From Oscillospiraceae bacterium (GTDB taxonomy: Bacteria; Bacillota; Clostridia; Oscillospirales; Oscillospiraceae): DNA of 55,908 bases. The notes beneath the pieces are model-generated. The model was given only the letters and a program-made list of their open reading frames with translations. It was not told the DNA's origin and did not search any database. Shown piece by piece: positions 24,230 through 42,897 of the stretch. Position numbers and translations under genes: made by a program. Where the stretch lies: the NCBI GenBank assembly GCA_017465625.1, contig JAFTVV010000036.1, positions 1 to 55,908 of the forward strand, given 5' to 3'. The first letter of the stretch is position 1, and each line of letters opens with the position of its first letter.

Positions 24230-27200
24230 TTATGCTACGGGAATGACAACGGCGCCCTCGCCGCTGGGCAGGGTTACGCTGCACTGACCGTTTTGGAGCT
24301 GATAGACAGAAGCTACGCCGTCCAAATAAACGATGACACAGGTGTAACCGGTATCAAAGGTCATAGAAACGGTATCGCTTGCCTTTTGGTTGGGATGGCT
24401 CATATTGACCAGCACGAACATATCGTTAAACCGGCCGTCATCCTTGCTGAAGTAGCCTGCAGTGGTATCTGCAGATGCGGAAATGCTTGCAAGTGCAGAG
24501 TGCTCTGCCAGCTGAGCAGCTGTCCACAGGCCGCCCATATCCGTACCGCCAACATTGCCGGTTCCGGTGTAGAAGCTGCCGCCTGCAGCGATGGCTGCGG
24601 TCTTCTCATAAGAGAAGTTGGCGATCAGGTTTTCCAGCTGACGCACCTCTGCGTTGGCAGACTGTACCCAATAGTACATATTCTGCTTCACCGGGTTCAT
24701 ATTGCTGTCCCACATCACACAGGCATCGGTGTAGGTTTCACCGCTGTGTGCCTGATTTGCGGGTTCCCAATAAGTATAGTAGTTGATGTAGCTGTAGCCG
24801 TGTGCCAAAGCAGTGTAGGCCTGCATAGAGATGGCCTGTGCACCCCAGCTGGCATCAAATGCCTGGAATTCCTTCCAAGTCTTGTTGCTCCAGAAGCCGC
24901 CATAGCTCTTACGAACCATACCATCGGAACGCAGCGCAGCTGCGAAGGTGGCGTTGCCGCCCTTGCTCTCGATGATATCGGCAAACAGCGCATAGTTCCG
25001 CTGCCAGTTGGCGCTCATCTTCTCGGTGTAGTTGATGGTAGAGGAAGCGAATCTGGTGCTTGCTTCAGTATACAACCCGTAGTTGTCAAATGCAAGAACC
25101 ATATTTTCGTGATTCCATACGGTTGCATTGACATTGCTTACAAACTGATCTACATAAGCCAGATATTCTGCTTCAGAGCAGGGATCGGAGCTGTCGCTGC
25201 CGGGAACGACGGTCTTCTTGGAAGCGCTCATACCCAGCATGGAGAAGTACAGGGTGTAGCCCTTCTCCAGCAGGCCAAGGCAGGAAACCTCACCGCTGAT
25301 CTGCTGGTTGCTGGTGTTCCATGCGGTGACCGTCACGGTCTGCTCTGCATCGGCAGCCAGGAAGCTGAACCAGGGAGCGTAGAAGCTCATGTGGTTATAG
25401 TAAGGCTCATCGCGGAGCAGGTAACCTGCAAAGCAGTTATACTCTGCGCCCACCTGCACACCATTCACCACAGGTACGTAATTGATCAAAGCATCGATAT
25501 TGTTTTTAGCGATAGCAGCATACTGCTCAACGTTATTGCGGTCACCGTTGTTCATATTGGTGCCATCCAGCAAGCCGTTGATGAAGCCATCGGTAACCAG
25601 AACCTTGATGTCCTCGTTGGTCAGGCCGTGATTGATGCAGTATTCTGCCGCCAGATCCAATGCGCTGAAGGCATCGTTTTCACTGTACCGCTTGCCGCCG
25701 TATACCCAGTCCTCTGCCATCCAGATGTTGAAGCCTGCATTAAAGTAGTCTTCCACATCGGCATAGACTGCATCGTGGGTTCTCTTTACGGTCTTATCAG
25801 TCACAGTGCCGTTAGACTCAGTGTAACGGAATGTACCCGCAGAAGGACCGTAGTAAGCACCGATATCCATCTTGTCCTGTGTATCCACCAGCTCCTGCTC
25901 CAGCTTTGCAGCTGCAAACAGACCGCCGGGAACGGTAACAACGCCGTCACCGAATACAACACCGTCTTCTGCGGTAAAGCGCAGACCTTCGATGGTCAGG
26001 GCGCTCACCTGCACATTGCCACCGGTGTAAGCGATGACGTAATCGCCGTTTTCATTGTTGGAAACGCTGATGGTGTAGCTGCGGTTGCCAATCAGGTTGG
26101 CATCAGCATCCAGTACCATAACACCGTTTACATACTCTGCCTTAACGGCTGTGTTCAGCCAGTTGCTTTCAGCAACTTCGTTCACTGTTACAGCAACCGC
26201 ATCGGTGCAGACATAGTTCTGACCGATATCCGCATACTCCACCAGCACGCCTGCGCAGGCATAGTAGGTCTTATTGTAGTCAGCTGCCGGGATGTTTGTC
26301 AATGCAATGTTATAAGACACAGTGCCATCCGCACCAACAATTTCCTTGAAGGGATTTTCGTCGGTGTGGTAAGGATTGCCGATCTTCCACTGTGCATTGG
26401 CAACTGTCAGGTTTTCCAAAGTTTCGGAAATCAGCAGTACCTTGGGGATATATTCTGTCTGACCCAGTGCGGCTACAAAACGCAGACCGGAATCTGCCAT
26501 ATCTGCACCGTGACGGATCTCGGTATGAACAGCCAGATCCAGGGTCTTCAGAGTGATATCCAGCACATTGCCTTCTGCAACGCTGATTTTGCCGATAGAA
26601 GCATACAGTGCATCGTTGGATTCATAACCCAGCAGAATCTTGCCGTCGGCAACAGCTGCCTTCAGCTCCTGCTCAACCAGCAAAATGCTGTCGGTATGCC
26701 AAGCCACACTGCGGCTCATCATGATCTGTCCGTTTTCATCCTTCACGGTCAGACTTACCATGGGATAGACCGGCTCATCTACTGTGGGGTCTTCCAGGTC
26801 CACAGAGCCGTCTGCGTGAGTATAGAAGGTAAATTCTTCGTTCAGCTTATAGTCGCCCAGTACAGTACCGGCAGGAATCACAATAATATGCTCATTCAGA
26901 TCGGCATCCAAAGTGAACTCCAAAGTGCCGGTGGTGGCCTGGAACCAACCGGAAGCGGTTTCGCCGTCAACAGTTGCATTCAGTGCAATCGCAGAGGACA
27001 GAGAGAATGCAGCATTGTCTACATTCAGAACAATGTACCAGTCACTGCCACGGAAGTTATAGGCACTGATGCCGGTGATGTTGATATAAGGCGTGGTATT
27101 GACATTGCTGTCGGCGTGGGTATAGAATACGAACTCATTTTCCAGAGTGAACTTACCCAGCTGTGTACCGGCAGGAATGACGACCTTATGCTCTGCCTTG

Positions 27201-29668
27201 TCGGTTTCCAAAGTGAATTCCAAAGAGCCGGTGGTGGGCTGAATCCAACCGGAAGCAGCTGCACCGTCAATCGTTGCATCCAGTTTCAATGCAGAGGGCA
27301 GAGAGAATGCAGCATTGTCCACATTCAAAATGATATACCAGTCATTGCCGCGGAAGTTATAGCCGCCAATGCCGGTGATGTTGATTGCAGGTGCCTCGTT
27401 GTCTGCGTAGCCGTTGCTGTGGGTATAGAATGCAAAGTCATTTTCCAGTACATAGTCACCCAGAACGGTACCGGCAGGAATCACAACATCATGCTCTGCC
27501 TTGTCGGTCTCCAGGGTGAATTCCAAAGTGCCGGTGCTCTTCTGGAACCAACCGGAAGCAGCTGCACCGTCAACAGTTGCATTCAGTGCAATCACAGAGG
27601 GCAGAGAGAATGCAGCATTGTCTACAGACAGAATGATGTACCAGTCACTGCCGCGGAAGTTATAGCCGGTGATACCGGTGATGTTCACATACTTAACGGG
27701 TTTGATATTATCCGCATAACCGTTTGCGTGGGTGTAGAACACATACTCGTTTTCCAGTACATAGTCGCCCAGAACGGTGCCGGCAGGAATGATGATCTCG
27801 TGGTCTGCCTTGTCGGTACCCAGAGAGAATTCCAAAGTACCGGTGGTCTTCTGAATCCAGCCGGTGGTCGCTGCGCCATCCACAGTAATGCCGGAAGTAG
27901 CCAGAGATGCCACATCGGCCATAGCAAAGGCGCTATTATCCACGTTCAGGACAATATACCAGTCAGCGTTGGCTTCCCGGTAGTTATAGGCATTGATGCC
28001 GGTGATGTTCACATACTTGACAGGCTTGGTGTTATCCACCTGACCGTTTGCGTGGGTATAGAACACAAAATCGTTTTCCAAAGTGTACTTGCCCAAAACC
28101 GTGCCGGCAGGAATGATAACCTCGTGTTCCGCCTTATCGGTTGCCAGCGTAAATTCCAAAGTGCCGGTTTTCGGCTGGAACCAACCGGATGCCGCTACAC
28201 CGTCCACAGTGGCATTCAGCTTCACAGCGGAGGACAGAGAGAATGCAGCATTGTCCACATTCAGGATGATATACCAGTCACTGCCACGGAAGTTGTAGCC
28301 GCCAATGCCGGTGACATTGATCACGGGTGCCTTGGTATTGACGGAACCGTCTGCATGAGTGTAGAACACATAGTCGCTGTTCAGCTTGAAATTGCCCAGC
28401 TGCGTTCCGGCAGGAATAACCACCTTATGCTCCGCCTTATCGGTTGCCAAGGTGAACTCCAAGGTACCGGTGGTAGCCTGGAACCAACCACCGGCGGCAG
28501 CTGCGCCATCAACGGTAACACCTGCATTTGCCACAGATGCCACATTGGTTAACGCAAAATCGGGATCACTGGTTTCCAAAATGATATACCAGTCACTGCC
28601 ACGGAAATTGTAGCCCTTGATGCCGGTAATGCTAAAAGGCGCAATATTATCCGCACGGCCGGTATCGTGGGTATAGAACACATAATCCTTTGCCAGCACA
28701 TAGTTGCCCAGCTGCATACCTGCAGGGAGCACCACCTTGTGCTCTGCCTTGTCGGTTGCCAATGTGAATGCCAGTGTGCCGGTCCCAATCTGGAACCAAC
28801 CACCGGCGGCAGCTGCGCCATCGACGGTTGTGCCGGAAGCGGCCACGGACGCCACAGCAGTCAGATTGAATTTACTATTATTGGTCTGCAGGATGATGTA
28901 CCAGTCACCACTGGCGCGGAAATTGTAGGCATTGATGCCGGTGATCTCAAATGCAGCAGGGCCTACAGCGCCGTCTGCATAGGTGCACAGTACATAATCC
29001 TCTGCCAGAGCATAGTTGCCCCACACAGTACCCTGGGGAATGACCACTCTGTGATCCGCCTTATCGGTTGCCAGGGTGAATGCGACCTTGCCGGCATTGT
29101 TGGCAGTTGCCTGGAACCAACCGCCTGCCGCAGCGCCATCAATGGTAGCACCCGCTGCACTCAGGGATGTTGCCGAAGGCAGAGAAAGTGCGCTCTGATT
29201 GGTATCCAGAATGATATACCAGTCACTGCCACGGAAGTTGTAGGCACTGATGCCGGTGACATTGACGCCAGCCTTGACGCTGCCGTCAGCCTGCGTGAAG
29301 AACACAAAGTCTTCCTTCAGGGTGAAACCGTTCAGCACCATACCGGCCGGAAAGACCACCTTGTGGTTTGCCTTGTCGGTTGCTAATGTGAATTCCAAAG
29401 TGCCGGTTTTCGGCTGGAACCAACCACCGGCGGCAGCTGCGCCATCGAGGGTTGCGCCGGAAGTGGCCACAGATGATGCGGCACTCAGGGAGAAATCGGC
29501 ATTATCGGTAGTCAGAATGATGTACCAGTCATTGCCGCGGAAGTTGTAGGCATTGATGCCGGTAATGGTAAACTCATTAGATGCCGCAGATGCTTTTACT
29601 GCAGGCACGATGGAGAAAATCAGGCAAAGGGACAGAAGGAACGCAAATACTCTTTTAACTTGTTTCAT
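24230..29668 (-). CDS. Giant secreted protein: nine DWYIIL repeats plus glycosidase-like C-terminus
   Basis: This 1812-residue protein has a signal peptide (1-~29, ending KASAASN). Nine consecutive DWYIIL domains of about 103 residues follow (residues ~32-960). A region of about 200 residues, containing HTEIRHGADMADSGLRFVAAL and NIPAADYNKTYYACAGVLVEY, leads into a C-terminal domain (~1255-1812) that resembles a TIM-barrel glycosidase. Candidate acids are in GYLLRDEPYYNH (about 1415) and VLAFDNYGLYTEA (about 1527); aromatic YINYYTYWEP lies near 1635. I do not recognise the GH family. No anchor, LPXTG, SLH or dockerin is visible. GGGGAGGAT precedes the ATG. It probably acts or binds outside the cell. 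Confidence 0.82.
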   Translation of the reverse strand: MKQVKRVFAFLLSLCLIFSIVPAVKASAASNEFTITGINAYNFRGNDWYIILTTDNADFSLSAASSVATSGATLDGAAAAGGWFQPKTGTLEFTLATDKANHKVVFPAGMVLNGFTLKEDFVFFTQADGSVKAGVNVTGISAYNFRGSDWYIILDTNQSALSLPSATSLSAAGATIDGAAAGGWFQATANNAGKVAFTLATDKADHRVVIPQGTVWGNYALAEDYVLCTYADGAVGPAAFEITGINAYNFRASGDWYIILQTNNSKFNLTAVASVAASGTTVDGAAAAGGWFQIGTGTLAFTLATDKAEHKVVLPAGMQLGNYVLAKDYVFYTHDTGRADNIAPFSITGIKGYNFRGSDWYIILETSDPDFALTNVASVANAGVTVDGAAAAGGWFQATTGTLEFTLATDKAEHKVVIPAGTQLGNFKLNSDYVFYTHADGSVNTKAPVINVTGIGGYNFRGSDWYIILNVDNAAFSLSSAVKLNATVDGVAASGWFQPKTGTLEFTLATDKAEHEVIIPAGTVLGKYTLENDFVFYTHANGQVDNTKPVKYVNITGINAYNYREANADWYIVLNVDNSAFAMADVASLATSGITVDGAATTGWIQKTTGTLEFSLGTDKADHEIIIPAGTVLGDYVLENEYVFYTHANGYADNIKPVKYVNITGITGYNFRGSDWYIILSVDNAAFSLPSVIALNATVDGAAASGWFQKSTGTLEFTLETDKAEHDVVIPAGTVLGDYVLENDFAFYTHSNGYADNEAPAINITGIGGYNFRGNDWYIILNVDNAAFSLPSALKLDATIDGAAASGWIQPTTGSLEFTLETDKAEHKVVIPAGTQLGKFTLENEFVFYTHADSNVNTTPYINITGISAYNFRGSDWYIVLNVDNAAFSLSSAIALNATVDGETASGWFQATTGTLEFTLDADLNEHIIVIPAGTVLGDYKLNEEFTFYTHADGSVDLEDPTVDEPVYPMVSLTVKDENGQIMMSRSVAWHTDSILLVEQELKAAVADGKILLGYESNDALYASIGKISVAEGNVLDITLKTLDLAVHTEIRHGADMADSGLRFVAALGQTEYIPKVLLISETLENLTVANAQWKIGNPYHTDENPFKEIVGADGTVSYNIALTNIPAADYNKTYYACAGVLVEYADIGQNYVCTDAVAVTVNEVAESNWLNTAVKAEYVNGVMVLDADANLIGNRSYTISVSNNENGDYVIAYTGGNVQVSALTIEGLRFTAEDGVVFGDGVVTVPGGLFAAAKLEQELVDTQDKMDIGAYYGPSAGTFRYTESNGTVTDKTVKRTHDAVYADVEDYFNAGFNIWMAEDWVYGGKRYSENDAFSALDLAAEYCINHGLTNEDIKVLVTDGFINGLLDGTNMNNGDRNNVEQYAAIAKNNIDALINYVPVVNGVQVGAEYNCFAGYLLRDEPYYNHMSFYAPWFSFLAADAEQTVTVTAWNTSNQQISGEVSCLGLLEKGYTLYFSMLGMSASKKTVVPGSDSSDPCSEAEYLAYVDQFVSNVNATVWNHENMVLAFDNYGLYTEASTRFASSTINYTEKMSANWQRNYALFADIIESKGGNATFAAALRSDGMVRKSYGGFWSNKTWKEFQAFDASWGAQAISMQAYTALAHGYSYINYYTYWEPANQAHSGETYTDACVMWDSNMNPVKQNMYYWVQSANAEVRQLENLIANFSYEKTAAIAAGGSFYTGTGNVGGTDMGGLWTAAQLAEHSALASISASADTTAGYFSKDDGRFNDMFVLVNMSHPNQKASDTVSMTFDTGYTCVIVYLDGVASVYQLQNGQCSVTLPSGEGAVVIPVA
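26784..29580 (-). repeat. Nine tandem ~310-bp DWYIIL domain repeats
   Basis: Repeat cores encoding NFRGSDWYII lie near 29530, 29222, 28910, 28590, 28278, 27960, 27642, 27340 and 27040. Units 5 and 7-9 are close at DNA level and share the AAFSL and VDG-x-x-ASGW-[FI]-Q patterns. Units 1-4 and 6 carry an extra short insertion before VDG. The gradient of similarity indicates expansion by unequal recombination. Confidence 0.93.
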
Positions 29669-29687: not shown

Positions 29688-30638
29688 TTATTGTGCGCTG
29701 ACAAGGTTATCCTTGTCGTTGCCGTAAGGATCTGCCAAATAGTCCAGTGCAGTCAGATGATACTGATACAGCTCACCGATCAGCGCCTTCAATTCGGCAT
29801 TCTCTGTCTTGCCGTACATACGGCTGATGTATTGCATGGGGCTGTAGGTGACAGTCAGTGCGTCGTTGACAGTCAGGGTAATGTTTGTCGCATAATCCTG
29901 AGGATTGATGTCGGGCACTTCTACATAGTAAAGACCGTTCTTGTAAACAGGCTCTTCACCGATGCTGAAATTGTAGTCGGCAATGTTTCCGCTTACAGCA
30001 AAGTAGAAACGAACAGCAATCCGGGTCTCAAACACCAAAGAAGCACCGTAGAAGGAAATGCCGCTGACAGAGCCGGATACCATATTGGCAGCACCGACTT
30101 CGGGAATTTCTGCTGTGGCGGTCTTTTCGTAGCCGGCATTAGCAAGATTTTCGATATTGTAATCAAAATACTCCTGTGTTGCCGCACCGTAGTTCAAGGT
30201 CGCAACCATCATATCGTTGGCTGCCAGCTTATCCCACTGTTTGCTGTCAAACAGCTTTTCCGCATAAGCACGAACAGAGGTGCTTGTCTGATAGGTCTTG
30301 CCGGAATCGCTCAGTGTTGCCTCAATGGTTTTGGTCATCTGAGCAGGTGCAATGGTGCAGGGGAAAGAATAGAGGTTGCCCTCTACGTGCTGTGCCTGTG
30401 CTACAGAAACCGTCTTGGTCTGCGCGCCAATGCCAAAGGTCATTTCTGCACCTTGGGTATCTGTCACTTCAGCATAGAAGTTGACAACCAGCTCGCTGCC
30501 CAGCGAAACAGATGTGCCCTTCATGGGACTTGCAGTTTCTGCAAATGCCCAGATGCCCAGCGCACCAACCGACAGCAGCAATACCAGCGCCAGTGAGACG
30601 ATACGCAGGATGCTTTTTTTGCTTGTTGCTTGTTGCAT
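29688..30638 (-). CDS. Secreted protein of unknown function, shared with the phosphatase giant
   Basis: This 316-residue protein has a basic N-terminus and hydrophobic stretch (about 9-31) ending WAFAETAS, a likely signal peptide. The rest (about 40-305) matches residues ~515-790 of the phosphatase giant over its length. Shared landmarks include SLGSELVVNFYAEV versus TLGDNLDMNFAVSV, INPQDY versus INPQDL, YSPMQYISRMYG versus YSAMHYIVRMFG, and ELKALIGELYQYHL versus ELKALLQAMYTYHL. It appears to be a two-part beta-rich module with a helical end. No catalytic motif was recognised. AAGGAGG precedes the ATG; it sits 19 bp upstream of the nine-repeat giant. Confidence 0.8.
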   Translation of the reverse strand: MQQATSKKSILRIVSLALVLLLSVGALGIWAFAETASPMKGTSVSLGSELVVNFYAEVTDTQGAEMTFGIGAQTKTVSVAQAQHVEGNLYSFPCTIAPAQMTKTIEATLSDSGKTYQTSTSVRAYAEKLFDSKQWDKLAANDMMVATLNYGAATQEYFDYNIENLANAGYEKTATAEIPEVGAANMVSGSVSGISFYGASLVFETRIAVRFYFAVSGNIADYNFSIGEEPVYKNGLYYVEVPDINPQDYATNITLTVNDALTVTYSPMQYISRMYGKTENAELKALIGELYQYHLTALDYLADPYGNDKDNLVSAQ

Positions 30639-30696: not shown

Positions 30697-31446
30697 TTAC
30701 TTCTGAATATACGCGCGAACATTATCAATATAGAATTGCTGGGGATTTTCGTGCAGCTCTCCACGGTCAAAGGTGATGTGGAAGCCGCCAACTGCTTCCA
30801 GTGCATCCGCACCGTATTTCATATACCGCTTACCGCTGTCGTCATAAGCAACCTGCTTGAATTCCTCTGCGGGAATTTTCAGGTTGTTCCACTGCTGCGG
30901 CTGTAAAATGACGGAATACACAATGTTGTAGGGATTGTTGGGATGGGTGGCATACCGATCCTCCATCGTGTTGTTGGCATCAATGGACGGATTCACGTAA
31001 AACCGGATCTCCACCTCATAATCCTGACAGTTGTATACATCCAATGCCAGATATTCCATATTGGAAAAATCTGTGGTGTAGTTGAAAAATCCCGTGGTTG
31101 TGGAAATACGCAGATTGGGACGGCGCTTCAGCCAGGAGCTTTCGTTTCCGGAGATGGTAATGTGGGCGGATGTTTCGCCATTGGTCACCATATCCGGCTG
31201 TTCCTGCCGGGATACCAATTCCATCGTGCCGAAATCTGCAAACAATCCCAGCTGGGAAGCCTCATAATAGTTTTCAAAATCGGCAAGCAGATAATAGGTT
31301 TGACCGTTTTCGTCTGTTTCCACCACATTGCTGCGCTGCTCTTCCTCCGGCTGGGTGGCAGTCGGTGTTTCCGACTGCGCACCTTTACAAGCAACCAGTG
31401 TGAACAGGCACAACATTGCAAACAGAAGGCAAAGTATTTTCTTCAT
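30697..31446 (-). CDS. Lipoprotein with carbohydrate-binding-like beta-sandwich
   Basis: This 249-residue protein has a lipoprotein signal peptide with lipobox LVAC (Cys about residue 20) and a charged spacer. A single beta-rich domain follows (LLADFENYYEASQL through the final FYIDNVRAYIQK). The pattern of strands ending in Q-F-Y-I-D-N-V-R is common in CBM-like jelly rolls, and a similar domain appears at the C-terminus of the DUF4091 protein encoded just upstream. Its start lies one base after that gene's stop (TGATATG). It may help present glycan at the cell surface; ligand unknown. Confidence 0.72.
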   Translation of the reverse strand: MKKILCLLFAMLCLFTLVACKGAQSETPTATQPEEEQRSNVVETDENGQTYYLLADFENYYEASQLGLFADFGTMELVSRQEQPDMVTNGETSAHITISGNESSWLKRRPNLRISTTTGFFNYTTDFSNMEYLALDVYNCQDYEVEIRFYVNPSIDANNTMEDRYATHPNNPYNIVYSVILQPQQWNNLKIPAEEFKQVAYDDSGKRYMKYGADALEAVGGFHITFDRGELHENPQQFYIDNVRAYIQK

Positions 31447-31447
31447 A

Positions 31448-33910
31448 TCACTGTGCCTCCTTTACCGTTACAAGGCTATCCACAAATACTGTAACTGCAG
31501 TACCTCTTTGGAAGTTGAAGTCGATCTCTTCAATGCTGTCCACATCTTCAAGCTCTGCCGATGTGGGCATTGTCAGCTCTATCAGCGTCCACTGACCGGG
31601 CTGCAATTCATAAGAAGCCATACTCACGTCCTTGCCGGCATAGTAGGTAACAGACATCAAGGTCATTTCCTCTGCCGGATTGTACACATACAGCTTGACC
31701 GTCTTAACATCCTTCCAGCTGCCGCCAATGAGCTCAGAGTCTTTGGTCAGTGCGAAGAACGGCAATGCATCTTCTCCATTGGGATTCATCTCGATCTTCA
31801 TAGAGCCGCTGCCCTCTTGTGCCATTTCATCGCTGTAGCTGCCGGAGTTTTTACCGAAGCAGCTGATCCAACCGCTGTAATCCTCCGACGGATTCTCAAA
31901 GCTCTGTACCTGACCCAACTGACCGTCAATCAAAACACGGGTCACAGTACGTGTGTTCTCGCCATTTTGAATCTGGAACGTAAAATCCTTCTGCTTTGTC
32001 AGATCCAGACAGAAGCGGTAAACGCCCTGCTCATCCGGAGTCTGCACCTGGCCATCCACCAGAATCTTTGCGTTCTGCGGTGCTTTGAAAGCGATATTTG
32101 CTTCCGAAACACCGATATCGGTTTCTACATAATAGACCTCGTTGCCGGCCTGGAGATTCAAAATCATCTCAAAAAGCTCGGTGCGGACCTGCTCAAAGGC
32201 AGATACATCCCGGTTGGGAATCAAACCGGTGGAATAGATGCGTCGGAACATGGGCTCCAGAACCGTCATGGCATCCAGCCCCTGTGCCGCATACAAATCA
32301 CGGACAACGTTCAAAAGCTGATAGTCTTCAGACATATCCCGATATGCCACCATACGCAGCGACGGACAAGGACCGTCAATGCCATACTTGGCGCCGGGAT
32401 AGGTCAGCTTTCCGTCACCGGCACTGGGTTCACCGGTGTGCATATCTACCCATGCATCCTCCACAGGCTCACCCCAGATCTGCCAGATATAGCAGGAGGT
32501 TGCCCACATCAGATAGGTGGGTGTATCCAGCTCATAGCACATCCAACCCAAAACACGGGTGGAAAGAGGCAGATCATCGGTATGGGCGTTGGGGAACGGA
32601 TAAGTGGGACTCCAGCAGGTGTACATCCATACATCCACGTAATCCCGACTCTCACGGATTGCCTCGGCATAACCCGGTGTTGCAAAGGCGTGAAGCACCG
32701 GACAAACCGTCAGATTATCCAGTCCGTAGTTTTTTACATCCTCGATATCGTAAGCACCGGGAATGACATCCGGAATATTGACCAGCACCGGAGAGATTAC
32801 ATTGATATAGTAGTCATAGTCCAGTGTGCCGACATACTCCTCACGCAGCTCTGTATCGCAATCAAAAAGCATCTGGAAATACAAGTCAATGGTCTGCTTT
32901 GCATCCAAAAACTGCTTTTCGGATGCAGGCTCATCCACATCGGTGTAGAAATAGGCATAAGCCTTATCCAGATAATTGACACCATCCTCCACCGATGCGT
33001 GCACCAGTGCACGGAGATACTCCTTCAGCAGCGGCAGGTTCACATTGGTCTGCACGCCCTCATAGCCGGAGCCGGTGGGTTCATAATATAGGGCATAGGC
33101 TGTAAAGCCGTCTTTATGGTAATACTCCCGAATCAGCTCTACGTATCTTTCGATTCCGCCGTTTCCTTCAAAGGGCACCTTACAGCTCATATTGTACTTG
33201 AGCATCAGGTCCACATATTTTGTCATAATCTCATCGGACGAATCCAACTCTGCGGATGCCAGATGATCTCTGTCAAACCAGGAGAAAGCGGTGCGCAGCT
33301 CCTCTACCCCGGTCAGGTCAATGTCGTGTACCGTGACCTGAATGGGCATATTGTACTGCTTTTCATCAGCGGTTACGGTTACAGTGCCGTTATAGACACC
33401 TGCCGCCGTACCGGCTGTGGTTGTGATGTCCAGCAGGACCACCTGATTGTGACCTGCTTCGATGCTCGTCTCTTTGTACGCCACAGCGGTTTCCATCGGC
33501 AGCATGGGATCCGGCACATAATCGCCGGCATAAGCAGGATTGCCCGGACGGCTGGTGGTTACAGATGCCTGATAAAGCACATCCCAAACTTCCACATTTT
33601 CCGCCGGAATCACCGCACTGCCGCAAATCAGATCGGAAACCGTCACGTCATAGCAGTCGATCTTTTTATTGGCATACATCATCAGCTGTACGGCTTCTGT
33701 TTCGTTTCGCGCCATCTGTACTTTTAATACAGATTTTCCCGGGGCTGTTTTCGCCGCTGCGCCATCGTCAAAGCGCAGATATTTTACCCCGGAGGGTTCT
33801 GACCAGAGCACCAGATCGCCCGAACCGGAACGACCTGCACCTGCGCAGCCACACAGTCCAAACAGCAGACTCAGGGTCAGTATCCACGCAAGAATCGTTT
33901 TTGCTTTCAT
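31448..33910 (-). CDS. DUF4091 / GH123-like lipoprotein glycosidase
   Basis: This 820-residue lipoprotein has lipobox GLCGC at about residues 18-22. The N-terminal beta domain has the DUF4091-type MARNETEAVQLMMYA (about 47-61) and an Ig-like GVYNGTVTVTAD segment. The central TIM-barrel-like domain (about 205-560) contains YAYFYTDVDEP (about 312-322), whose DE pair corresponds to the catalytic dyad expected in GH123-type beta-N-acetylgalactosaminidases. The C-terminal ~170 residues form a jelly-roll similar to the next encoded lipoprotein. It is expected to be cell-surface tethered. GGAGGTG precedes the ATG. Activity on GalNAc is inferred from family only. Confidence 0.78.
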   Translation of the reverse strand: MKAKTILAWILTLSLLFGLCGCAGAGRSGSGDLVLWSEPSGVKYLRFDDGAAAKTAPGKSVLKVQMARNETEAVQLMMYANKKIDCYDVTVSDLICGSAVIPAENVEVWDVLYQASVTTSRPGNPAYAGDYVPDPMLPMETAVAYKETSIEAGHNQVVLLDITTTAGTAAGVYNGTVTVTADEKQYNMPIQVTVHDIDLTGVEELRTAFSWFDRDHLASAELDSSDEIMTKYVDLMLKYNMSCKVPFEGNGGIERYVELIREYYHKDGFTAYALYYEPTGSGYEGVQTNVNLPLLKEYLRALVHASVEDGVNYLDKAYAYFYTDVDEPASEKQFLDAKQTIDLYFQMLFDCDTELREEYVGTLDYDYYINVISPVLVNIPDVIPGAYDIEDVKNYGLDNLTVCPVLHAFATPGYAEAIRESRDYVDVWMYTCWSPTYPFPNAHTDDLPLSTRVLGWMCYELDTPTYLMWATSCYIWQIWGEPVEDAWVDMHTGEPSAGDGKLTYPGAKYGIDGPCPSLRMVAYRDMSEDYQLLNVVRDLYAAQGLDAMTVLEPMFRRIYSTGLIPNRDVSAFEQVRTELFEMILNLQAGNEVYYVETDIGVSEANIAFKAPQNAKILVDGQVQTPDEQGVYRFCLDLTKQKDFTFQIQNGENTRTVTRVLIDGQLGQVQSFENPSEDYSGWISCFGKNSGSYSDEMAQEGSGSMKIEMNPNGEDALPFFALTKDSELIGGSWKDVKTVKLYVYNPAEEMTLMSVTYYAGKDVSMASYELQPGQWTLIELTMPTSAELEDVDSIEEIDFNFQRGTAVTVFVDSLVTVKEAQ

Positions 33911-35612: not shown

Positions 35613-36536
35613 TTAGCCCTTCATACCACCGATGGAAATATTGTTCATAATCTGCTTGTTGAAGATCAAAAACAGAATTGCGACGGGGATGATCGATATC
35701 AGCATACCTGCGAAATAAGTAGGTGTGCTCAATCCCAACTGGAACATATTATCCTTGTACAGATAAAGAGCTGTGGACAGTGTGGGATAGGACGGCAGAT
35801 ACAGCAGCGGTACATCGTAGCTGTTCCACGCGGAAATAAACTGCATAACCGAAAGAGATACAATAATCGGTCGTGCCTGGGGCAGCATCACCCGGAAAAA
35901 TACGGTGAAAGGTCCGGCACCGTCAATCTGCGCCGCCTCCGCATATCCTGTCGGCAAATTCCGGAAGAATGCATACACAATCAAAAAGTACATACCGTGA
36001 CCGGCACCCTGACCAATCAAAAACAGCGGAGAGTCCAGTATGCCCAGATTATCCAGCAATTGATAGTTGGCGGCAGTCTGTCCGTACACCGGAATCATCA
36101 TCTGCAAAACCACGAAAACATACAAAAACTTACGGCCGGGGAAATGCAGCCGTGCCACAGCGTATGCAAAAAATACCGTGGAGATCATTTTGGTTGCAGT
36201 CATACCAAAGCTGAACCAGAAGGAGTTCAGGATCAGTGTGAAATAATTGGTCGTAACCAGCTCACCATCAATATAGGATTCAAACACAAACTTTTCCATT
36301 GCCTTTTTGTAGTTGGAAAAGTCAATTTTCATGGGGATAAAGCTGCTGGGATGATCCAAATACCAGTCTTCGTCCGCAATGGACACGCCAAAGCCCCACA
36401 GGATCATCAGCACGAACAAAAAGCCCCAAATCAGCGGAATCAAGCCGAGAACATTGAACAGCGCACCGTTCTTTTTGATTTCAGACAGGCGGTTGTATGC
36501 CTTGGAGTCTTTCCGGAAAAGATGTCGTTTTGCCAT
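35613..36536 (-). CDS. ABC sugar transporter permease, MalG type
   Basis: This 307-residue permease has six predicted helices and the cytoplasmic EAA loop YAEAAQIDGAGPFTVFFRVMLPQARP (about residues 195-220) that docks the ATPase. The long first periplasmic segment (about 55-100) is typical of MalG-like units. It starts one base after the stop of its partner (TGATATG). No ATP-binding subunit is encoded here; a shared MsmK/MsiK-type ATPase elsewhere is presumed. Confidence 0.93.
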   Translation of the reverse strand: MAKRHLFRKDSKAYNRLSEIKKNGALFNVLGLIPLIWGFLFVLMILWGFGVSIADEDWYLDHPSSFIPMKIDFSNYKKAMEKFVFESYIDGELVTTNYFTLILNSFWFSFGMTATKMISTVFFAYAVARLHFPGRKFLYVFVVLQMMIPVYGQTAANYQLLDNLGILDSPLFLIGQGAGHGMYFLIVYAFFRNLPTGYAEAAQIDGAGPFTVFFRVMLPQARPIIVSLSVMQFISAWNSYDVPLLYLPSYPTLSTALYLYKDNMFQLGLSTPTYFAGMLISIIPVAILFLIFNKQIMNNISIGGMKG

Positions 36537-36537
36537 A

Positions 36538-37458
36538 TCAATACTCGACCTCCTCTCCGAAGCGATTCATCAGCCAGCGACCAACCACAACCAGCGGAAT
36601 GGTGAACACCGTGAAGATCAGTCCCACTGCCGCTACGTTGCCGTATTCAGAGGTCAGCCCCTGCAAGACCATATTGTACATCCAGAATGCGATGGTATTT
36701 GTTCCGTTCGCACCGCCGGTCAATGCAAGCACCGAGCCGGTTGCACCGAAAATACCGATGACCTGCAAAGTAATCATGGTCACAAAGGTAGGCCAGATCA
36801 GAGGCAAAACCACCTTGCGGAATTCTGTGAAAGGACCGATGCCTTCCAGCTTTCCGACTTCGATCAGTTCCTTGGGAATACGGGACATAGAGCCCAGCCA
36901 GATCATCAGGTTTCCGCCAATGCCCACAAAGATATCAAAAATCATAATGTAGAGCATACCGTCAGTAAAACGAAGGGATGCCATATTTTCTTTGCCGGTG
37001 ATATCCTTGACCGCTTCCATCACCGGACCGGTGGAGGACATCAGGTTGGCATAAAGCAGTGCCAGCATAATGCCGCCCACCGCACCGGGCAAATACAATG
37101 TCACGCGGGAGAAGCTGTAACCAATGCTCTTGCGGTAAATCAGATAGGAGAAGAACATTGTCAACGGCACCAACGTCATACCCATTACAAAGAACGTCAG
37201 TGTGTTGCGAAATGCCAGTCCCATATTGTTGTTGCCTACATCGGAAAAGATGTGATCCCACGCCCAAACGAAGTTATCCCATCCTTTTTCCATTGTAAAC
37301 TGATTGGTAAAGGCCAGATCAAACGTTTCAATCTGCACGCCCAGCCAGAAGATCAGCAGATGCAAGACTGCGGGAGCGCACAATACAATAATGCACAGCC
37401 AATCCCAAAATCCGTTTCTGTATTTCCTTTTCTTCAAAGGATGATTATTTTGCTTCAT
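36538..37458 (-). CDS. ABC sugar transporter permease, MalF type
   Basis: This 306-residue integral membrane protein has about six helices and the EAA loop LIEVGKLEGIGPFTEFRKVVLPLIWP (about residues 205-230). The FWLGVQIETFDLAFTNQF stretch after helix 1 is typical of the first carbohydrate permease. It starts 3 bp after the stop of the anchored giant. Together with the adjacent permease and binding protein it imports oligosaccharides released outside. Confidence 0.93.
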   Translation of the reverse strand: MKQNNHPLKKRKYRNGFWDWLCIIVLCAPAVLHLLIFWLGVQIETFDLAFTNQFTMEKGWDNFVWAWDHIFSDVGNNNMGLAFRNTLTFFVMGMTLVPLTMFFSYLIYRKSIGYSFSRVTLYLPGAVGGIMLALLYANLMSSTGPVMEAVKDITGKENMASLRFTDGMLYIMIFDIFVGIGGNLMIWLGSMSRIPKELIEVGKLEGIGPFTEFRKVVLPLIWPTFVTMITLQVIGIFGATGSVLALTGGANGTNTIAFWMYNMVLQGLTSEYGNVAAVGLIFTVFTIPLVVVGRWLMNRFGEEVEY

Positions 37459-37461
37459 TTC

Positions 37462-40400
37462 TTATCTGCCTCTCTTTGCCCTTTTCTTCAGCAGGAACAC
37501 GCCTGCTACTGCCACCAGTGCGCAGGCACCGACAATACTGATCCAGAGCACCGTCGTATTCTTCTGCCCGGATTGACCGGTTGTTGCATCACTGCTCTGG
37601 CGAACCACGCATTGAATGGTCAGCTCCTGCACATCCATATACACCTGATCCAGTACCAGCTTGCCGTCTTGTGTTACGGACAATTTCTGATCACCGACCA
37701 AAATGTATTCCACATAATGGCCATCCGCAATTGTTACGGTCAGCTCCAATGTACCGCCAAAGGGCAGCTTACCATCTGCAGCATCCCCACCCAGGGTCAC
37801 TGTGCAGTTTGCGTTTTCCTGCACGGAAAGGGTGTAGCTGCGCTGTACAGCCTCTGCCTTGATCGCGATATCACTGCGCACACTTCTGATCGTGCCGGAC
37901 CAGATGCCGGTTTTGGGATTGAACCGCAGCAACGATGTGATATCCAAACCGTTTGCCATAACACGAGGCTCAAAGCCCTTTTGTGCTGTGACGGTCACAA
38001 GCAGATCATCACCGGCCAATACCTGCTGCTGATCTACTGCCATTTCTAATTCCGGTGCTTTCTCAACCGTCACCGTGTGCATGGTGGTGTCCTCTGCGAT
38101 CTCGTAAGCAAAGGAAATGTGGCTCTTCAGTTCTTTAATCGTATAGCAGTATGCACCATCTGTACCGATCTGCACATCTGCGGTCACATCCGTACCGTTG
38201 ACGGTAAATGCAGAAAGCTTCGTGCCGGGCTTCGTAAAGAAGCTGATCACACCGGCCTTGGGTGCAGAAGCGGCATCGCTGTAGCCCTCCAATGCAGCCG
38301 GGAAATACAGCTCCGCAATATGTTCACCCCAACGCTCATAGGTGCGCATCTGTGCTTTATTTGCATCAGAAGACACGTCGGTAATGGTGTAAATGTCCTT
38401 CAGGCTATACAGGAAGTAGCTTTCTTCCATATCTGTGCCGTTACAGCTGAAATGTCCGCCGTAATGGCCACGTTCTACGCTGTCGTACCAGGCAACAGTT
38501 TCCATTGTATCTGCGGTCTTGCCTGCCTTGATATACCAGCGGTCGTATTTATACAGACCGTTTTCGTAGCACTTGACAATGCCCAATTCCACACAGACGT
38601 TATTGCCGGGTGCAAAGTAGCTGCTTGCAAAGGAAGCAAGTCTTACCATCGCAGCAGGATGGCAGAAATGTACCTGATTGGGTGTGATCTGGAACAGCGC
38701 ACCGCTGTTGCCCCACAAGGTGCTGACGTCGCCCAAAATACCGATGGGTATTTGGTTGAACTGGTTCGGCAGCTGAATACGGAAGCGCACTGCAGAATTC
38801 ACTTCTGCCTGCCCTTGGGAATCCACCATTCCGCCCAGGCTCACGCCGTAATGCTTGCCTTGCACTTCAATGGCTGCTTTGCCGGAGGTATCAAACAAAT
38901 CAAAAATACGTACAGGCTCGTCCACTGTCAGTTTCTTAACTTCCAGTTCTACCCGCAGCTGATCCGTTTCCACAGGCGCATCCAGCTCATATACCAGTTT
39001 TCCGTCAGTGCTCTGGATGGGCTGCAGCAATGTTCCGTTCAGATACAGACCCTTCAGCGCAACCTTATTATTGTAATCGGATTGGTAAAGCACGCTGATC
39101 TTGGAGGGCTCACCGGAGACCACCTGACTGATGACCTCTACAAAGTTCTTTCCGTCTGCCGTTTCACCGTTGATCACGGTTTCTACAGGCAGTTTCACGG
39201 TCTTTTTCATTGTGGAAAGGGTTACCGGAGAATCCTGCGATGTCAGCAGCATCATATATTTGCCCACAGGACGGCCAAAGTCCGTATCCTCCCAGGAGGC
39301 AATCTCTTCACCGTTGATCAGCAGGTAGACGCGGCGGCAATAGTTTCCGACACGCTTGCCGTCTTTTTCAATGACCACATCCCGAACGCCCATCTCCACC
39401 GTGTATGTTCCGGCATACGGGAAGGGCTTGATCACCTCGTGATCATTGGTGCCGTGGGCAATGTAAGCGGTATCCCACTTGGGTCTGAGCCAGACCTGCC
39501 AGCCGGAACCGGCTTCATCCCAGAAGTTGTCCTGCTGCTGTTTTGCCAGCGCCAGCCGCACTTCGGTGGCATCACCGGAAAGGGTCATTTTCACCCGAAT
39601 AGCGGTGTTGGACGAATTGAGTGCTTCGCCCAGCAAAATGGTCTGACCGCCGGGAATGGTATCTGCCGCAAAACCGGTCAGATCATAATAATCATAAACC
39701 GTGGGGTTCAGCTCCCGCAGTGCAACGCCCTCGCTGGTCAAGGAGATCAGTTTGCCGTTCACCGCATCCTGAGAGTTGAGCACATAGAATTGCTTACCCA
39801 CTTTTCTGTTCAAGTCGGTATCTTTATAGGAAAGAACTTCTTGCCCGTCAATCTTCAGGAAGATTTTACGGCAATACAGCCCTTGATCCACACCGTCCAT
39901 ATATTCGTGCAGATCCACAGTACCGATCTCTACAATATGTTCGGTTTTTGTAAATTCATAGTGGCCGGTGACCTGCCAATCGGTCTCACCGTGGGCCAGG
40001 TACACCTGACTGTGTTTTGGGCGGAGCCAGACCTGCCAGCCTGCGCCATCCCACATGCCCTCTGTCTTGGAGAAGCCGAAATTAAACTCGGTGGCATCCG
40101 TATTGACAGAAATAATGGAGCGAAAAGCAACATTTGTGCTCTGCTTGGCATTGCCAATCAACTGCACACCAGGCTTGATGGCAAATTCAGAAAGACCCAG
40201 CTTCAGCTCGGAAACATCCTGAACAATGTAGTTTTGTTCACGCAAATCCCGCAGATATGTACCATTTTCCCAGTTGCCTGCTCCGTCATAGACAAAGCTC
40301 TGTTTCTGGAAGGTGACTGCGTGATCGCCATTGCCGAAGACACCGTCAATCGTGACCACGTCTCCCTTTTGAGGCGGGTAGCAGAATTGTGCCAGGGGCA

Positions 40401-42897
40401 CATAGTACAGGTTTTCCAGCCACTTGTTTACCGTCAGGCCGGTCAACTCACCGTTGACATACACGCCACCGGAAGCTGCACTAAAGTGCATATTTCCTGT
40501 ATGTTCATCGTAAGGCAGCTGATCGGCAGGAGTTACACCAAAGTACAGGCCCTGTGTGCCATCCCCTGTCATATTTCTGCTGTCATTGGTCACCTCTACC
40601 GTTTCCGTAGGCTCGGCAATGGGCACAGGAGCAGTTTGGCTGACGGTCAAGCCCTCTGTGTAGAAGGTCAGATCGTTTTTAACTGTATATGCACCGATGT
40701 GAGATCCCTTTTGCAAGGTCACGGTATAGTTTCCGGGACGGGTGATTCCGGTTGTTGCGTCAAGAATCAGCAATACCGCGCCTGCATCCCGTACAGCGTA
40801 TACATTTCTCCGTTCCCCGTTTATGTACATACCGTCCAGAGGCTCCCAGGGAATCACAAGCTCCCCTGCCGCATCGCAATCCAGCCATACCACATAACGG
40901 GCAAGGTTGTTTTCCGGAATGTACTGCCACAAGCCTTTCTGGAAGCGGAACTCCACCGGTGCTGCCGGAGGGGTTGTGCCCACTGTTCCATCGGCATAAG
41001 TATAAAATACAAAGTCTTCTTTCAGGGTATACGCACCAAACTTGGTGCCGGCAGGAATGGTCACCTTGTGCTCTGCCTTATTGGTTGCCAGTGTAAAGGC
41101 GAAGCTGCCGTTGGGCACGCTCAGCTGGCTGTTAATCTGGAACCATACCTGTGCGGTGGCATCGTCCACCGGCGCCTGGATGCCGCTGATGGAGGTCAGC
41201 TTAAAGTCTGCAATGTCCGTATTTAAAATAATGTACCAGTCGCTGTTATTGGGGCGGTACATACTCTCCCGGATGCCGGTAATGCTGACGGTTTTTGTTT
41301 CCGGCTCAACAGGTGCGGTGGTTTCCGGCTCGGTAGTCTCCGGCTCGGTAGTCTCCGGCTCGGTGGTTTCCGGCTCGGTGGCTTCGGTGGTTAATGTGCC
41401 ATCGGCGTGGGTATAGAACACAAAGTCCTTTTGCAGGGTGTATTCACCCAAGACTGTTCCGGCAGGAATGGTGACCGTATGTTCCGCTTTGTTGGTGGCC
41501 AGTGTGAGGGAGAAGCTGCCGTTGGGCACGCCAAGTTGGCTGTTGATCTGAAACCATACCTGTGCGGTGGTTTCGTCCACCGGTGCTTTCAGACCGCTGA
41601 TGGCGGTCAGCTTAAAGTCTGCAATGTCCGTATTTAAAATAATGTACCAGTCGTTATTATTGGGGCGGTACATGCTCTCCCGGATGCCGGTAATGCTGAC
41701 GGTTTTTGCTTCCGGCTGAACCGGTGCGGTGGTTTCCGGCACGGTGGTCTCCGGCTCGGTGGTTTCGGTGGTCAATGTGCCGTCTGCGTGGGTGTAGAAT
41801 ACGAAGTCCTTTTGCAGGGTATATTCACCCAAGGCTGTTCCGGCAGGAATGGTGACCGTATGCTCTGCTTTAGTAGCGGCCAGCGTAAAGGAGAAGCTGC
41901 CATTGGGCACACCCACCTGACTGTTGATCTGGAACCATACCTGTGCGGTGGTATTATCCACCGGTGCTTTCAGACCACTGATCGCAGTCAGCTTAAAATC
42001 CGCAATGTCGGTATTGACAATGATATACCAGTCGTTATTGTTGGTGCGGTACAAAGCCTCACGGATGCCTGTGATGTTCACAGTCTTTTCATCCGGTGCG
42101 GGGAGTTCCGGCTCGGTGGTCTCCGGCTCGGTGATTTCAGCCGTGATTGTGCCGTCTGCGTGCGTATGGAACACGAAACCTTCTTTCAAGGTCTTCTCGC
42201 CCAGAACCGTTCCGGCAGGAATGGTCACCGTATGCTCCGCTTTGGTGGCGGCCAGCGTCAGAGCAAAGCTGCCTTCAGAAATGCCCAGCTGGCTGTTGAT
42301 CTGGAACCACACCTGTGCAGTGGTATCGTCCACCGGTGCTTTCAGACCACTGATAGCGGTCAGCGCAAAGTCCTCAATGTTTGTATCTAAAATAATGTAC
42401 CAGTCGTTATTATTGGGACGGTATGCACCCAACTGAATGCCGGTAATCTGCAGGCCCTGAGGTACAAGCTCCAGCGTGCCATCGACGTGGGTCTTGATTA
42501 CAACATCTTCTTTTAAAATGTATCCGCCCAGTTCGGTGCCGGCAGGAATCGTTGCGGTATGTTCCCCTTTATCTGCCGCCAGCGTCAGGGAGAAGCTGCC
42601 CTTGGAAACGCTCAGCTGACTGTTGATCTGGAACCACACCTGTGCTTCGGTATCATCTACCTCCGCTTTCAGTCCGCTGATAGCAGTCAGCTCAAAATCC
42701 GGGATGTCGGTATCTAATATGATGTACCAGTCATTGTTGTTTGGGCGGTAGACACCCACCTGAATATCTGTAACGCTGAACTCTTGTGGTTCTACTGCTG
42801 CAGCGCCCATGGGAAAATGCCCCAACAGCATCAGAATCGCCAGCAAGAGGCATATTCCGCTGCGCATATTCCCTTGTTTTTTGTTTACACCCATCAT
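37462..42897 (-). CDS. Giant membrane-anchored surface protein: DWYIIL repeats, paired beta-sandwich modules, C-terminal TM
   Basis: This 1811-residue protein is first in the operon. A signal peptide (1-~34, ending GAAAVEPQ) precedes five clear DWYIIL domains (about 36-640), separated by Thr-Glu-Pro linkers, and a degenerate sixth (about 640-755). Two paralogous beta-sandwich modules centre near residues 950 and 1130, sharing GWQVWLRPK, AHG, YCR-[RK] and DTD-x-x-R-x-VGK. A looser third lies near 1340-1500. The C-terminus has repetitive beta domains, a helix (about 1783-1805) and a basic tail KKRAKRGR, so the protein is anchored in the membrane with its bulk outside. No LPXTG. AAGGAGG fits the ATG at 42897. 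It may be the scaffold or glycan receptor of the locus; that role is inferred. Confidence 0.82.
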   Translation of the reverse strand: MMGVNKKQGNMRSGICLLLAILMLLGHFPMGAAAVEPQEFSVTDIQVGVYRPNNNDWYIILDTDIPDFELTAISGLKAEVDDTEAQVWFQINSQLSVSKGSFSLTLAADKGEHTATIPAGTELGGYILKEDVVIKTHVDGTLELVPQGLQITGIQLGAYRPNNNDWYIILDTNIEDFALTAISGLKAPVDDTTAQVWFQINSQLGISEGSFALTLAATKAEHTVTIPAGTVLGEKTLKEGFVFHTHADGTITAEITEPETTEPELPAPDEKTVNITGIREALYRTNNNDWYIIVNTDIADFKLTAISGLKAPVDNTTAQVWFQINSQVGVPNGSFSFTLAATKAEHTVTIPAGTALGEYTLQKDFVFYTHADGTLTTETTEPETTVPETTAPVQPEAKTVSITGIRESMYRPNNNDWYIILNTDIADFKLTAISGLKAPVDETTAQVWFQINSQLGVPNGSFSLTLATNKAEHTVTIPAGTVLGEYTLQKDFVFYTHADGTLTTEATEPETTEPETTEPETTEPETTAPVEPETKTVSITGIRESMYRPNNSDWYIILNTDIADFKLTSISGIQAPVDDATAQVWFQINSQLSVPNGSFAFTLATNKAEHKVTIPAGTKFGAYTLKEDFVFYTYADGTVGTTPPAAPVEFRFQKGLWQYIPENNLARYVVWLDCDAAGELVIPWEPLDGMYINGERRNVYAVRDAGAVLLILDATTGITRPGNYTVTLQKGSHIGAYTVKNDLTFYTEGLTVSQTAPVPIAEPTETVEVTNDSRNMTGDGTQGLYFGVTPADQLPYDEHTGNMHFSAASGGVYVNGELTGLTVNKWLENLYYVPLAQFCYPPQKGDVVTIDGVFGNGDHAVTFQKQSFVYDGAGNWENGTYLRDLREQNYIVQDVSELKLGLSEFAIKPGVQLIGNAKQSTNVAFRSIISVNTDATEFNFGFSKTEGMWDGAGWQVWLRPKHSQVYLAHGETDWQVTGHYEFTKTEHIVEIGTVDLHEYMDGVDQGLYCRKIFLKIDGQEVLSYKDTDLNRKVGKQFYVLNSQDAVNGKLISLTSEGVALRELNPTVYDYYDLTGFAADTIPGGQTILLGEALNSSNTAIRVKMTLSGDATEVRLALAKQQQDNFWDEAGSGWQVWLRPKWDTAYIAHGTNDHEVIKPFPYAGTYTVEMGVRDVVIEKDGKRVGNYCRRVYLLINGEEIASWEDTDFGRPVGKYMMLLTSQDSPVTLSTMKKTVKLPVETVINGETADGKNFVEVISQVVSGEPSKISVLYQSDYNNKVALKGLYLNGTLLQPIQSTDGKLVYELDAPVETDQLRVELEVKKLTVDEPVRIFDLFDTSGKAAIEVQGKHYGVSLGGMVDSQGQAEVNSAVRFRIQLPNQFNQIPIGILGDVSTLWGNSGALFQITPNQVHFCHPAAMVRLASFASSYFAPGNNVCVELGIVKCYENGLYKYDRWYIKAGKTADTMETVAWYDSVERGHYGGHFSCNGTDMEESYFLYSLKDIYTITDVSSDANKAQMRTYERWGEHIAELYFPAALEGYSDAASAPKAGVISFFTKPGTKLSAFTVNGTDVTADVQIGTDGAYCYTIKELKSHISFAYEIAEDTTMHTVTVEKAPELEMAVDQQQVLAGDDLLVTVTAQKGFEPRVMANGLDITSLLRFNPKTGIWSGTIRSVRSDIAIKAEAVQRSYTLSVQENANCTVTLGGDAADGKLPFGGTLELTVTIADGHYVEYILVGDQKLSVTQDGKLVLDQVYMDVQELTIQCVVRQSSDATTGQSGQKNTTVLWISIVGACALVAVAGVFLLKKRAKRGR
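40970..42795 (-). repeat. Five DWYIIL domain repeats of the anchored giant
   Basis: Repeat cores encoding [NS]-DWYII-[LV] lie near 42730, 42400, 42030, 41655 and 41235. The copies share VWFQINSQ and GLKAPVDDTTAQ and lack the VDGAAA segment of the nine-repeat giant, so they form a separate subfamily. Linkers are Thr-Glu-Pro rich; at about 41324-41383 a 15-bp tandem repeat encodes successive TEPET units. Confidence 0.92.

Follow-up and report, generated by a model that had tools for sequence, protein, structure and literature searches.

The window analysed here, a 55,908-nucleotide stretch of an Oscillospiraceae bacterium (GenBank assembly GCA_017465625.1, contig JAFTVV010000036.1, positions 1 to 55,908), encodes three giant exported proteins, P0001, P0003 and P0005, which carry 18 tandem copies of a ~100-residue domain, the DWYIIL repeat, together with one degenerate copy. 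Within Pfam, NCBIfam, PHROGs, PDB sequences and PDB folds, the repeat is an orphan domain family. We put at about even the chance that it is a small all-beta, lineage-specific binding module whose arrays would be multivalent for one target, most likely the glycan degraded by the locus. The system is a variant of the known multimodular surface glycan-degrading proteins of Gram-positive gut bacteria; the domain family is new. The three carriers, whose open reading frames are all intact, are organized as follows (aa, amino acids).

24230–29668, minus strand: P0001, 1812 aa; signal peptide, nine repeats (residues 33–956), then ~845 aa ending in a ~560-aa domain; no C-terminal anchor
24233–25912, minus strand: P0001 C-terminal domain, enzyme-like by eye only (DEP and FDxYxL motifs), unclassified
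37462–42903, minus strand: P0003, 1813-aa scaffold; signal peptide, five repeats, degenerate copy, three divergent YDLTG domains, C-terminal membrane helix (~1785–1803), basic tail
38449–40167, minus strand: three divergent YDLTG domains of P0003 (residues 913–1057, 1069–1239 and 1333–1485), the repeat type of a paralogous locus
10451–16108, minus strand: P0005, 1885 aa; signal peptide, four repeats, calcineurin-like phosphoesterase, tyrosine-phosphatase-like domain, two similar C-terminal domains; no anchor

In all three giants the repeats begin right behind the signal peptide, as judged by eye and from hydropathy. The linkers between copies are 3–8 residues long in P0001, 6–34 in P0003, where three of the four are rich in Thr, Glu and Pro, and 15–37 in P0005. 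Hydropathy gives a C-terminal membrane helix in P0003 and none in P0001 or P0005, and no LPxTG motif occurs in any of the three. The repeat is thus common to one membrane-anchored protein and two unanchored exported ones, as a preliminary description of this DNA had proposed for secreted and membrane-anchored partners. That description had also counted nine, four and five copies plus a degenerate one in three proteins, and the count holds: nine fall in P0001, five in P0003 and four in P0005, in agreement with the number of DWY[ILV][IV][LV] motifs. The span it gave, 24230–42897, takes in P0001 and P0003, but the four-copy P0005 lies outside it. The units are ~95–103 residues each, and the degenerate copy has counterparts in both other species that carry the repeat.

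29276–29572, minus strand: P0001 repeat 1
28964–29266, minus strand: P0001 repeat 2
28655–28951, minus strand: P0001 repeat 3
28340–28636, minus strand: P0001 repeat 4 (the copy used for the structural model)
28037–28321, minus strand: P0001 repeat 5
27716–28012, minus strand: P0001 repeat 6
27407–27688, minus strand: P0001 repeat 7
27101–27385, minus strand: P0001 repeat 8
26801–27085, minus strand: P0001 repeat 9
42475–42780, minus strand: P0003 repeat 1
42145–42453, minus strand: P0003 repeat 2
41776–42081, minus strand: P0003 repeat 3
41395–41700, minus strand: P0003 repeat 4
40981–41289, minus strand: P0003 repeat 5
40642–40956, minus strand: P0003 degenerate copy (residues 650–754), which retains mainly the C-terminal half of the pattern
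15698–16000, minus strand: P0005 repeat 1
15344–15652, minus strand: P0005 repeat 2
14996–15298, minus strand: P0005 repeat 3
14576–14884, minus strand: P0005 repeat 4

When a single copy was used to query its own genome (1.70 Mb in 47 contigs, 80% complete), the 18 copies were returned at E values from 2e-16 to 4e-59 and nothing further at E ≤ 0.001, and the repeat is therefore far beyond chance. Pairwise identity among the window copies averages 0.55 (range 0.36–0.89), and their alignment has 12 invariant columns. The order of short motifs proposed earlier as the consensus is correct for P0001, but the P0003 copies vary it, with YRPNNNDW and VWFQINSQ. Across three species we assembled 54 full copies (18 from the window, 19 from the genome G300 and 17 from G371), leaving aside one G300 repeat with an in-frame stop, copies truncated by contig ends and one divergent copy scoring 42 bits. 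Eight residues are invariant in 54/54: R12, D15, W16, W51, Q53, G57, H70 and G77. The divergent copy, the last of P0001 in G371, has lost R12, D15, W16 and Q53 and kept W51, G57, H70, G77 and the PAG motif in a MAFFT alignment; in this single copy the pattern looks like that of a site lost and a fold retained. The ratio of nonsynonymous to synonymous substitution rates (dN/dS) is 0.07–0.41 over 36 pairs, each a window copy set against its best copy in one of the two other species, although many of these pairs are not reciprocal best matches and several have dS above 1. Purifying selection acts on the copies. As a separate observation, the G300 repeat with the stop belongs to the P0005 homologue at the start of contig C23 (L039); its in-frame TAA lies near the contig end and may be an assembly error or mark a broken copy.

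No significant match for the repeat was found in NCBIfam or among PDB sequences, and no Pfam or NCBIfam model accounts for any single copy, the best single-copy Pfam E value being 0.006. Whole-protein Pfam scores do exceed the gathering cut-offs, for P0003 with AA9 (48.5 bits against 27.8) and ToxT_N (29.3 against 27) and for P0001 with Hyd_WA (32.2 against 21), because many similar copies add up; the best stretches span 16–53 residues. AA9 (PF03443) was rejected as the identity of the repeat. Only 5/18 copies match it at E ≤ 1, the P0003 score sums five copies, and the best P0003 stretch covers model positions 96–148 of 207, one quarter of the model. The N-terminal histidine of the copper brace is the hallmark of AA9, a family of lytic polysaccharide monooxygenases; it is lacking here, as the copies begin with F, V, L or I, and mature P0003 starts, by eye, near VEPQEF. 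What AA9 and the repeat share is presumably a stretch of ~50 residues with the pattern VWFxI ... TIP ... GxYxL, and the AA9-type PDB chain 4b5q is matched at E 1. Single copies reach Hyd_WA and ToxT_N at best at E 0.035 and 0.17, and we take both as summed weak chance matches. Among PDB sequences, Potempin A was matched at E 0.043, with per-domain E values of 2–5. The best PHROGs match (head decoration, E 0.0015) occurs in 4/23 copies and was also taken as chance.

An AlphaFold2 model of one copy, built with 23 sequences, is all-beta, with a predicted local distance difference test (pLDDT) score of 96.8 and a predicted template modelling (pTM) score of 0.87. In a Foldseek search of the PDB with this model, 0/574 matches had E ≤ 0.001; against BFVD, 0/271 did, and TMq was at most 0.51 in the 50 matches listed. 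CBM31 and CBM56 are binding modules for beta-1,3-xylan and beta-1,3-glucan. Like them the repeat is an all-beta module of ~90 residues, and CBM31 is its best Foldseek neighbour by E value (2cov, E 0.2, TM 0.44), with CBM56 among the first 20 matches (best E 0.52). However, E values of 0.2–0.6, TM scores of about 0.35–0.45 and 8–13% identity do not place the repeat in either family. The 50 PDB matches listed also include dengue domain III and further Ig-like domains, and TMq among them is at most 0.47. The fold would thus be new in its arrangement, or else a sandwich that has diverged too far for assignment: of the small beta-sandwich suggested in the preliminary description, the all-beta character is borne out by a confident model, and the sandwich is plausible but unproved. 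Its statement that no named family has this signature stands, as does the novelty of the domain in the face of the searches for a characterised relative, with the caveat of the whole-protein AA9, ToxT_N and Hyd_WA scores. A full-text search of the open-licence literature for DWYIIL found no paper, and searches with general terms returned no title or opening of an abstract that describes the repeat.

The occurrence of the repeat was followed by profile searches of genome samples at the level of family, genus, order, class and phylum; the samples overlap and are not exhaustive, and the family sample did not draw G339 or G371. Only the genome of the window was returned from the family (1/300 at E ≤ 0.001), order (1/394 at E ≤ 0.01) and class (1/391 at E ≤ 0.01) samples. 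In the genus sample 4/136 genomes matched at E ≤ 0.001, and three of these are real, with 18 matches in G000, 23 in G339 and 20 in G371, partial copies included; the fourth, G414 (E 2.5e-4, 51 residues), was rejected, being read as an unrelated protein. The phylum sample gave 3/299 at E ≤ 0.05, namely the genome of the window and two matches at E 0.03–0.04: G1298 (E 0.033, 26 residues, with a stop inside) and G066 (E 0.04), a giant protein whose match appears on reading to be chance. A peptide-pattern scan of the GTDB contig collection with a single copy returned one locus (L017), from Oscillospiraceae bacterium RGIG3076 of the goat rectum; its genome is our G300, which we take to be the same as G339 because the contig coordinates of the two agree. 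Plasmids and phages yielded no match at E ≤ 1 with one copy, and viral contigs none by the peptide patterns of one copy. In the genome samples searched, the repeat is confined to three species of one genus and to this one locus, and it is therefore not a general glycan-locus module. The preliminary description had named absence from other glycan loci as a result that would count against it, and such absence is largely what was observed, the paralogous glycan locus described below included.

Of the genes of the locus, 15/16 are found in the same order in G371 and 13/16 in G300, and its proteins are 64–96% identical between the window and these two genomes. Copy number varies: the scaffold has 5 copies in the window, 9 in G300 and 4 in G371; P0001 has 9 in the window, at least 8 on two contig ends in G300, and 9 plus the divergent one in G371; and P0005 has 4 in the window and about 4, split over contigs, in the others. 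In a tree of the 54 full copies, P0001 copies 1–4 and the P0005 copies cluster for the most part with copies from equivalent positions. The later window P0001 copies cluster apart from those of G300 and G371, which intermix, and three G300 scaffold copies form a clade of their own (support 0.98).

With the C-terminal part of P0003 as a lead, we found a paralogous locus on contig C19 of the same genome, the only one to respond among 200 in a family sample. It encodes a scaffold of 1824 aa with a C-terminal helix. Behind this come two permeases, which share 51% and 47% identity with the window pair, and GH123-like, lipoprotein-like and GH20-like proteins that are 37%, 35% and 32% identical to their window counterparts. 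Upstream of the scaffold gene lies that of a 2251-aa exported protein, one part of which is 35% identical to the GH123-like protein and scores 26.3 bits in Pfam, just under the cut-off of 27. The N-terminal repeats of the C19 giants are a different domain of ~175 residues (VYDIYDLTG), of which the scaffold has eight copies and the secreted protein five, with one weak copy in addition; the scaffold of a second species has 11. The DWYIIL profile found nothing convincing in these proteins (best whole-sequence E 0.0065 among seven proteins, best domain 1.9 bits), and P0003 retains its three YDLTG domains below the DWYIIL array. Both loci occur in the same 3/136 genus genomes, side by side on one contig in G339. 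In each locus, one private repeat is common to anchored and secreted proteins. The simplest reading would be a duplication of the backbone, after which one repeat was swapped for another or gained anew, and the comparison makes a shared ligand or a shared partner appear more likely than coincidence. We also observed that, in this second glycan locus (L060, L061, L076), the 2251-aa protein combines YDLTG repeats and the GH123-like part with a lipoprotein-like C-terminal domain.

On the reading that we favour, arrays of 4–9 copies would let membrane-anchored P0003 and secreted P0001 and P0005 each bind one common target at many points, and this is most likely the glycan broken down by the locus. 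The cell and the enzymes that it releases would then come together on one polymer, and the products would reach the neighbouring ATP-binding cassette (ABC) transporter. The shared target would be a carbohydrate, for which a glycan is the obvious candidate in such a locus, and the arrays would act by avidity, with R12, D15, W16 and Q53, together with W51 and H70, probably forming or supporting the binding site. A ligand shared by anchored and secreted proteins would explain at once the sharing of the repeat, its locus specificity and its invariant aromatic and polar residues. The setting agrees with this, as the gene run combines glycosidase-type genes (GH20, GH29, GH36-type and GH123-like) and an esterase with a solute-binding protein and two permeases, and the paralogous locus again has one private repeat common to an anchored scaffold and a secreted protein with a GH123-like part. 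The first Foldseek match by E value, although below threshold, is likewise to a carbohydrate-binding module. Several points weigh on the other side. Some of the invariant residues may be structural, and the loss of four of them is seen in one copy only. The Foldseek matches to carbohydrate-binding modules (CBMs) are not significant, and other Ig-like beta proteins score alike. The C-terminal domain of P0001 has no assigned enzyme family, its glycosidase look coming from motifs alone. Finally, the repeat is absent from the paralogous glycan locus and has no convincing match in other sampled genomes, which leaves it without an independent association with glycan loci.

The same pattern of private repeats on anchored and secreted proteins, with different repeat types on a common backbone, would also arise if the repeats bound each other, scaffold copies capturing the copies of secreted enzymes in a surface complex without cohesin and dockerin, and each locus using its repeat as an address. 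A tree of the locus-2 repeats suits such like-with-like contact, in that three enzyme copies fall together with one scaffold copy in a single clade (support 0.979); the tree comprises the 19 copies that passed a spacing filter, out of more found by the profile, and most of its inner nodes are poorly supported. However, a shared glycan ligand explains the pattern too, a self-associating module would also bind within one array, and the scaffold copies of locus 1 form their own subtype with nothing comparable seen in locus 2, so that complementary docking subtypes are no general feature. We regard homotypic association as rather unlikely. A bolder form of the idea, in which the private repeat of each locus would be an address by which scaffold and enzyme copies bind each other or one locus-specific glycan and so retain only the enzymes of their own locus, and in which DWYIIL would be a fold that has newly arisen and a novel principle of recognition for building surface enzyme complexes without cohesin–dockerin, is speculative, and we think it improbable. 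It is more doubtful by far that the repeats act like wall-binding repeats and fix the unanchored proteins to the bacterium's own cell wall or to its polysaccharide. In favour of this, P0001 and P0005 belong to a surface uptake gene set although they have no C-terminal anchor; against it, P0003 has a membrane helix and would not require such a device, and in the genome, which is 80% complete, no copy was detected in any further protein.

Nor do we think it probable that the arrays serve only as stalks or spacers that set the reach of the C-terminal domains, with copy number shifting by recombination. The scaffold copy numbers of 5, 9 and 4 across species and the short P0001 linkers, with the longer and mostly Thr/Glu/Pro-rich ones of P0003, would fit a stalk, and the separate grouping of later window P0001 copies and the G300 scaffold clade are as expected under within-gene expansion. 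Periscope Proteins, with their SHIRT, Rib and SasG repeats, are similar in having tandem, similar folded domains in variable number (PMC8201768); here, identities are 36–89% and the variation is between species. The present proteins differ in that the repeats are N-terminal and not below an adhesin, there is no LPXTG, two carriers are unanchored, and polar and aromatic residues are invariant. A stalk normally projects an N-terminal adhesin, whereas these repeats start behind the signal peptide; the invariant R, D, W, Q and H in 54/54 copies exceed the needs of a hydrophobic core; and a spacer role accounts for changes in copy number while leaving unexplained why unanchored proteins carry the repeat and why polar residues are invariant.

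Cohesin–dockerin cellulosomes combine a surface partner with secreted enzymes of one pathway. This arrangement recurs here, as it does in the amylosome of Ruminococcus bromii (Sas20; PMC9112005), but one repeat type is found on both partners, and no cohesin or dockerin match appeared in Pfam for the three giants at E ≤ 1 or among the families listed for single copies. CpGH31 with its three CBM32s is a multimodular, CBM-bearing secreted glycosidase of a gut Gram-positive bacterium (PMC5291390). With glycosidases of this type the present system shares large multidomain proteins, several small modules for one glycan class and a host-glycan setting, here read from the genes. It differs in that the repeat has no Pfam family, occurs in up to nine similar copies and is also borne by a membrane-anchored partner, and the enzyme family of P0001 is unassigned. 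As for fusion of the module to a carbohydrate-active enzyme, the C terminus of P0001 is glycosidase-like by motifs only, and the locus-2 repeat is fused to the part that resembles the GH123-like protein. For the last 845 residues of P0001, searches of Pfam (E ≤ 0.1) and of the PDB (E ≤ 10) returned nothing, and the last 558, as a three-sequence profile, had no PDB match. Over ~150 residues its C-terminal ~560 aa are 31% identical to one of two adjacent 421-aa lipoprotein-like proteins on G371 contig C50 (L054); the DEP and FDxYxL motifs common to both by eye suggest a possible unassigned glycosidase family.

The giants belong to a 16-gene run on the minus strand, from 42903 to 8370, which has mostly short gaps and by its spacing would be one operon. 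The order is P0003, two permeases, solute-binding protein, GH123-like, lipoprotein-like, 316-aa, P0001, GH20, GH29, rhamnosidase-like, GFO/IDH/MocA, 100-aa, esterase, P0005 and GH36-type; the genes other than those of the giants, with the divergent regulator, are as follows.

35613–37458, minus strand: two ABC-transporter permeases, directly behind the scaffold gene
33947–35593, minus strand: solute-binding protein (SBP_bac_1), lipoprotein-like N terminus by eye
31448–33910, minus strand: GH123-like protein, lipoprotein-like N terminus by eye
30697–31446, minus strand: lipoprotein-like protein; weak surface-glycan-binding-protein match under the Pfam cut-off
29688–30638, minus strand: 316-aa protein without a Pfam hit at E ≤ 0.01; the G339 version shares 39.5% identity with part of P0005
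22576–24168, minus strand: GH20 beta-hexosaminidase-like enzyme
21315–22730, minus strand: GH29 alpha-L-fucosidase-like enzyme; not found in the G300 locus
18387–21305, minus strand: glycosidase-like protein of 972 aa; matches a rhamnosidase model (BT4145) weakly, at 30.7 bits where the cut-off is 1300
17221–18417, minus strand: GFO/IDH/MocA oxidoreductase-like protein; not found in the G300 locus
16908–17210, minus strand: 100-aa protein, PQ-loop match under the cut-off
16165–16908, minus strand: esterase-like alpha/beta hydrolase (BD-FAE)
8370–10394, minus strand: GH36-type melibiase-like enzyme, which closes the run; no counterpart was seen in the sequence retrieved for the other two species
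43363–44256, plus strand: AraC-type regulator, divergent; kept beside the scaffold gene in G339

The GH123-like protein, whose activity is a prediction, exceeds the Pfam gathering scores for the catalytic and N-terminal models of GH123 / DUF4091 beta-GalNAcases, PF13320 (44.7 bits against 23.1) and PF22680 (29.9 against 27), and has no NCBIfam match at E ≤ 0.001. Together the GH20, GH29 and GH123-like genes point to glycans bearing N-acetylhexosamine (HexNAc) and fucose as the probable target. Plant material may also be a target, given the weak rhamnosidase-like match and the galacturonate genes at 44–53 kb, which are possibly a separate operon. These last (44325–53273, minus strand) are galacturonate-type catabolic genes for a PfkB kinase, KDPG aldolase, altronate dehydratase, UxaC and a mannitol-dehydrogenase family protein, and the same interval encodes a GH4 enzyme. 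It also encodes a member of the beta-lactamase family that is similar to the model for 3-succinylated cholic acid synthase (185 bits, cut-off 800). Ahead of the AraC-type gene stands a perfect sigma-70 consensus, TTGACA-18-TATAAT (12/12 positions, window 43311–43340, plus strand); in the whole stretch 7 promoter-like sites were observed against 3.0 expected. In P0005 a calcineurin-like phosphoesterase and a tyrosine-phosphatase-like domain are fused behind the repeats, and its G300 and G371 homologues are shorter: they stop at the position equivalent to residue 1704 (of 1885) and so do not reach the second of the two similar C-terminal domains. A domain of ~290 residues is common to the 316-aa protein, residues ~512–804 of P0005 and residues ~898–1190 of the C19 2251-aa protein.

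Having a confident predicted structure and no assignable sequence family or significant PDB fold neighbour, the DWYIIL repeat is a candidate new small beta module. The two paralogous loci amount to a natural swap experiment, in which a similar backbone of transporter and enzymes is combined with a different repeat, borne in each case by both anchored and secreted partners. Binding to distinct glycans would make the repeats a guide to the substrates of either locus, and binding of repeat to repeat would make them an assembly principle.

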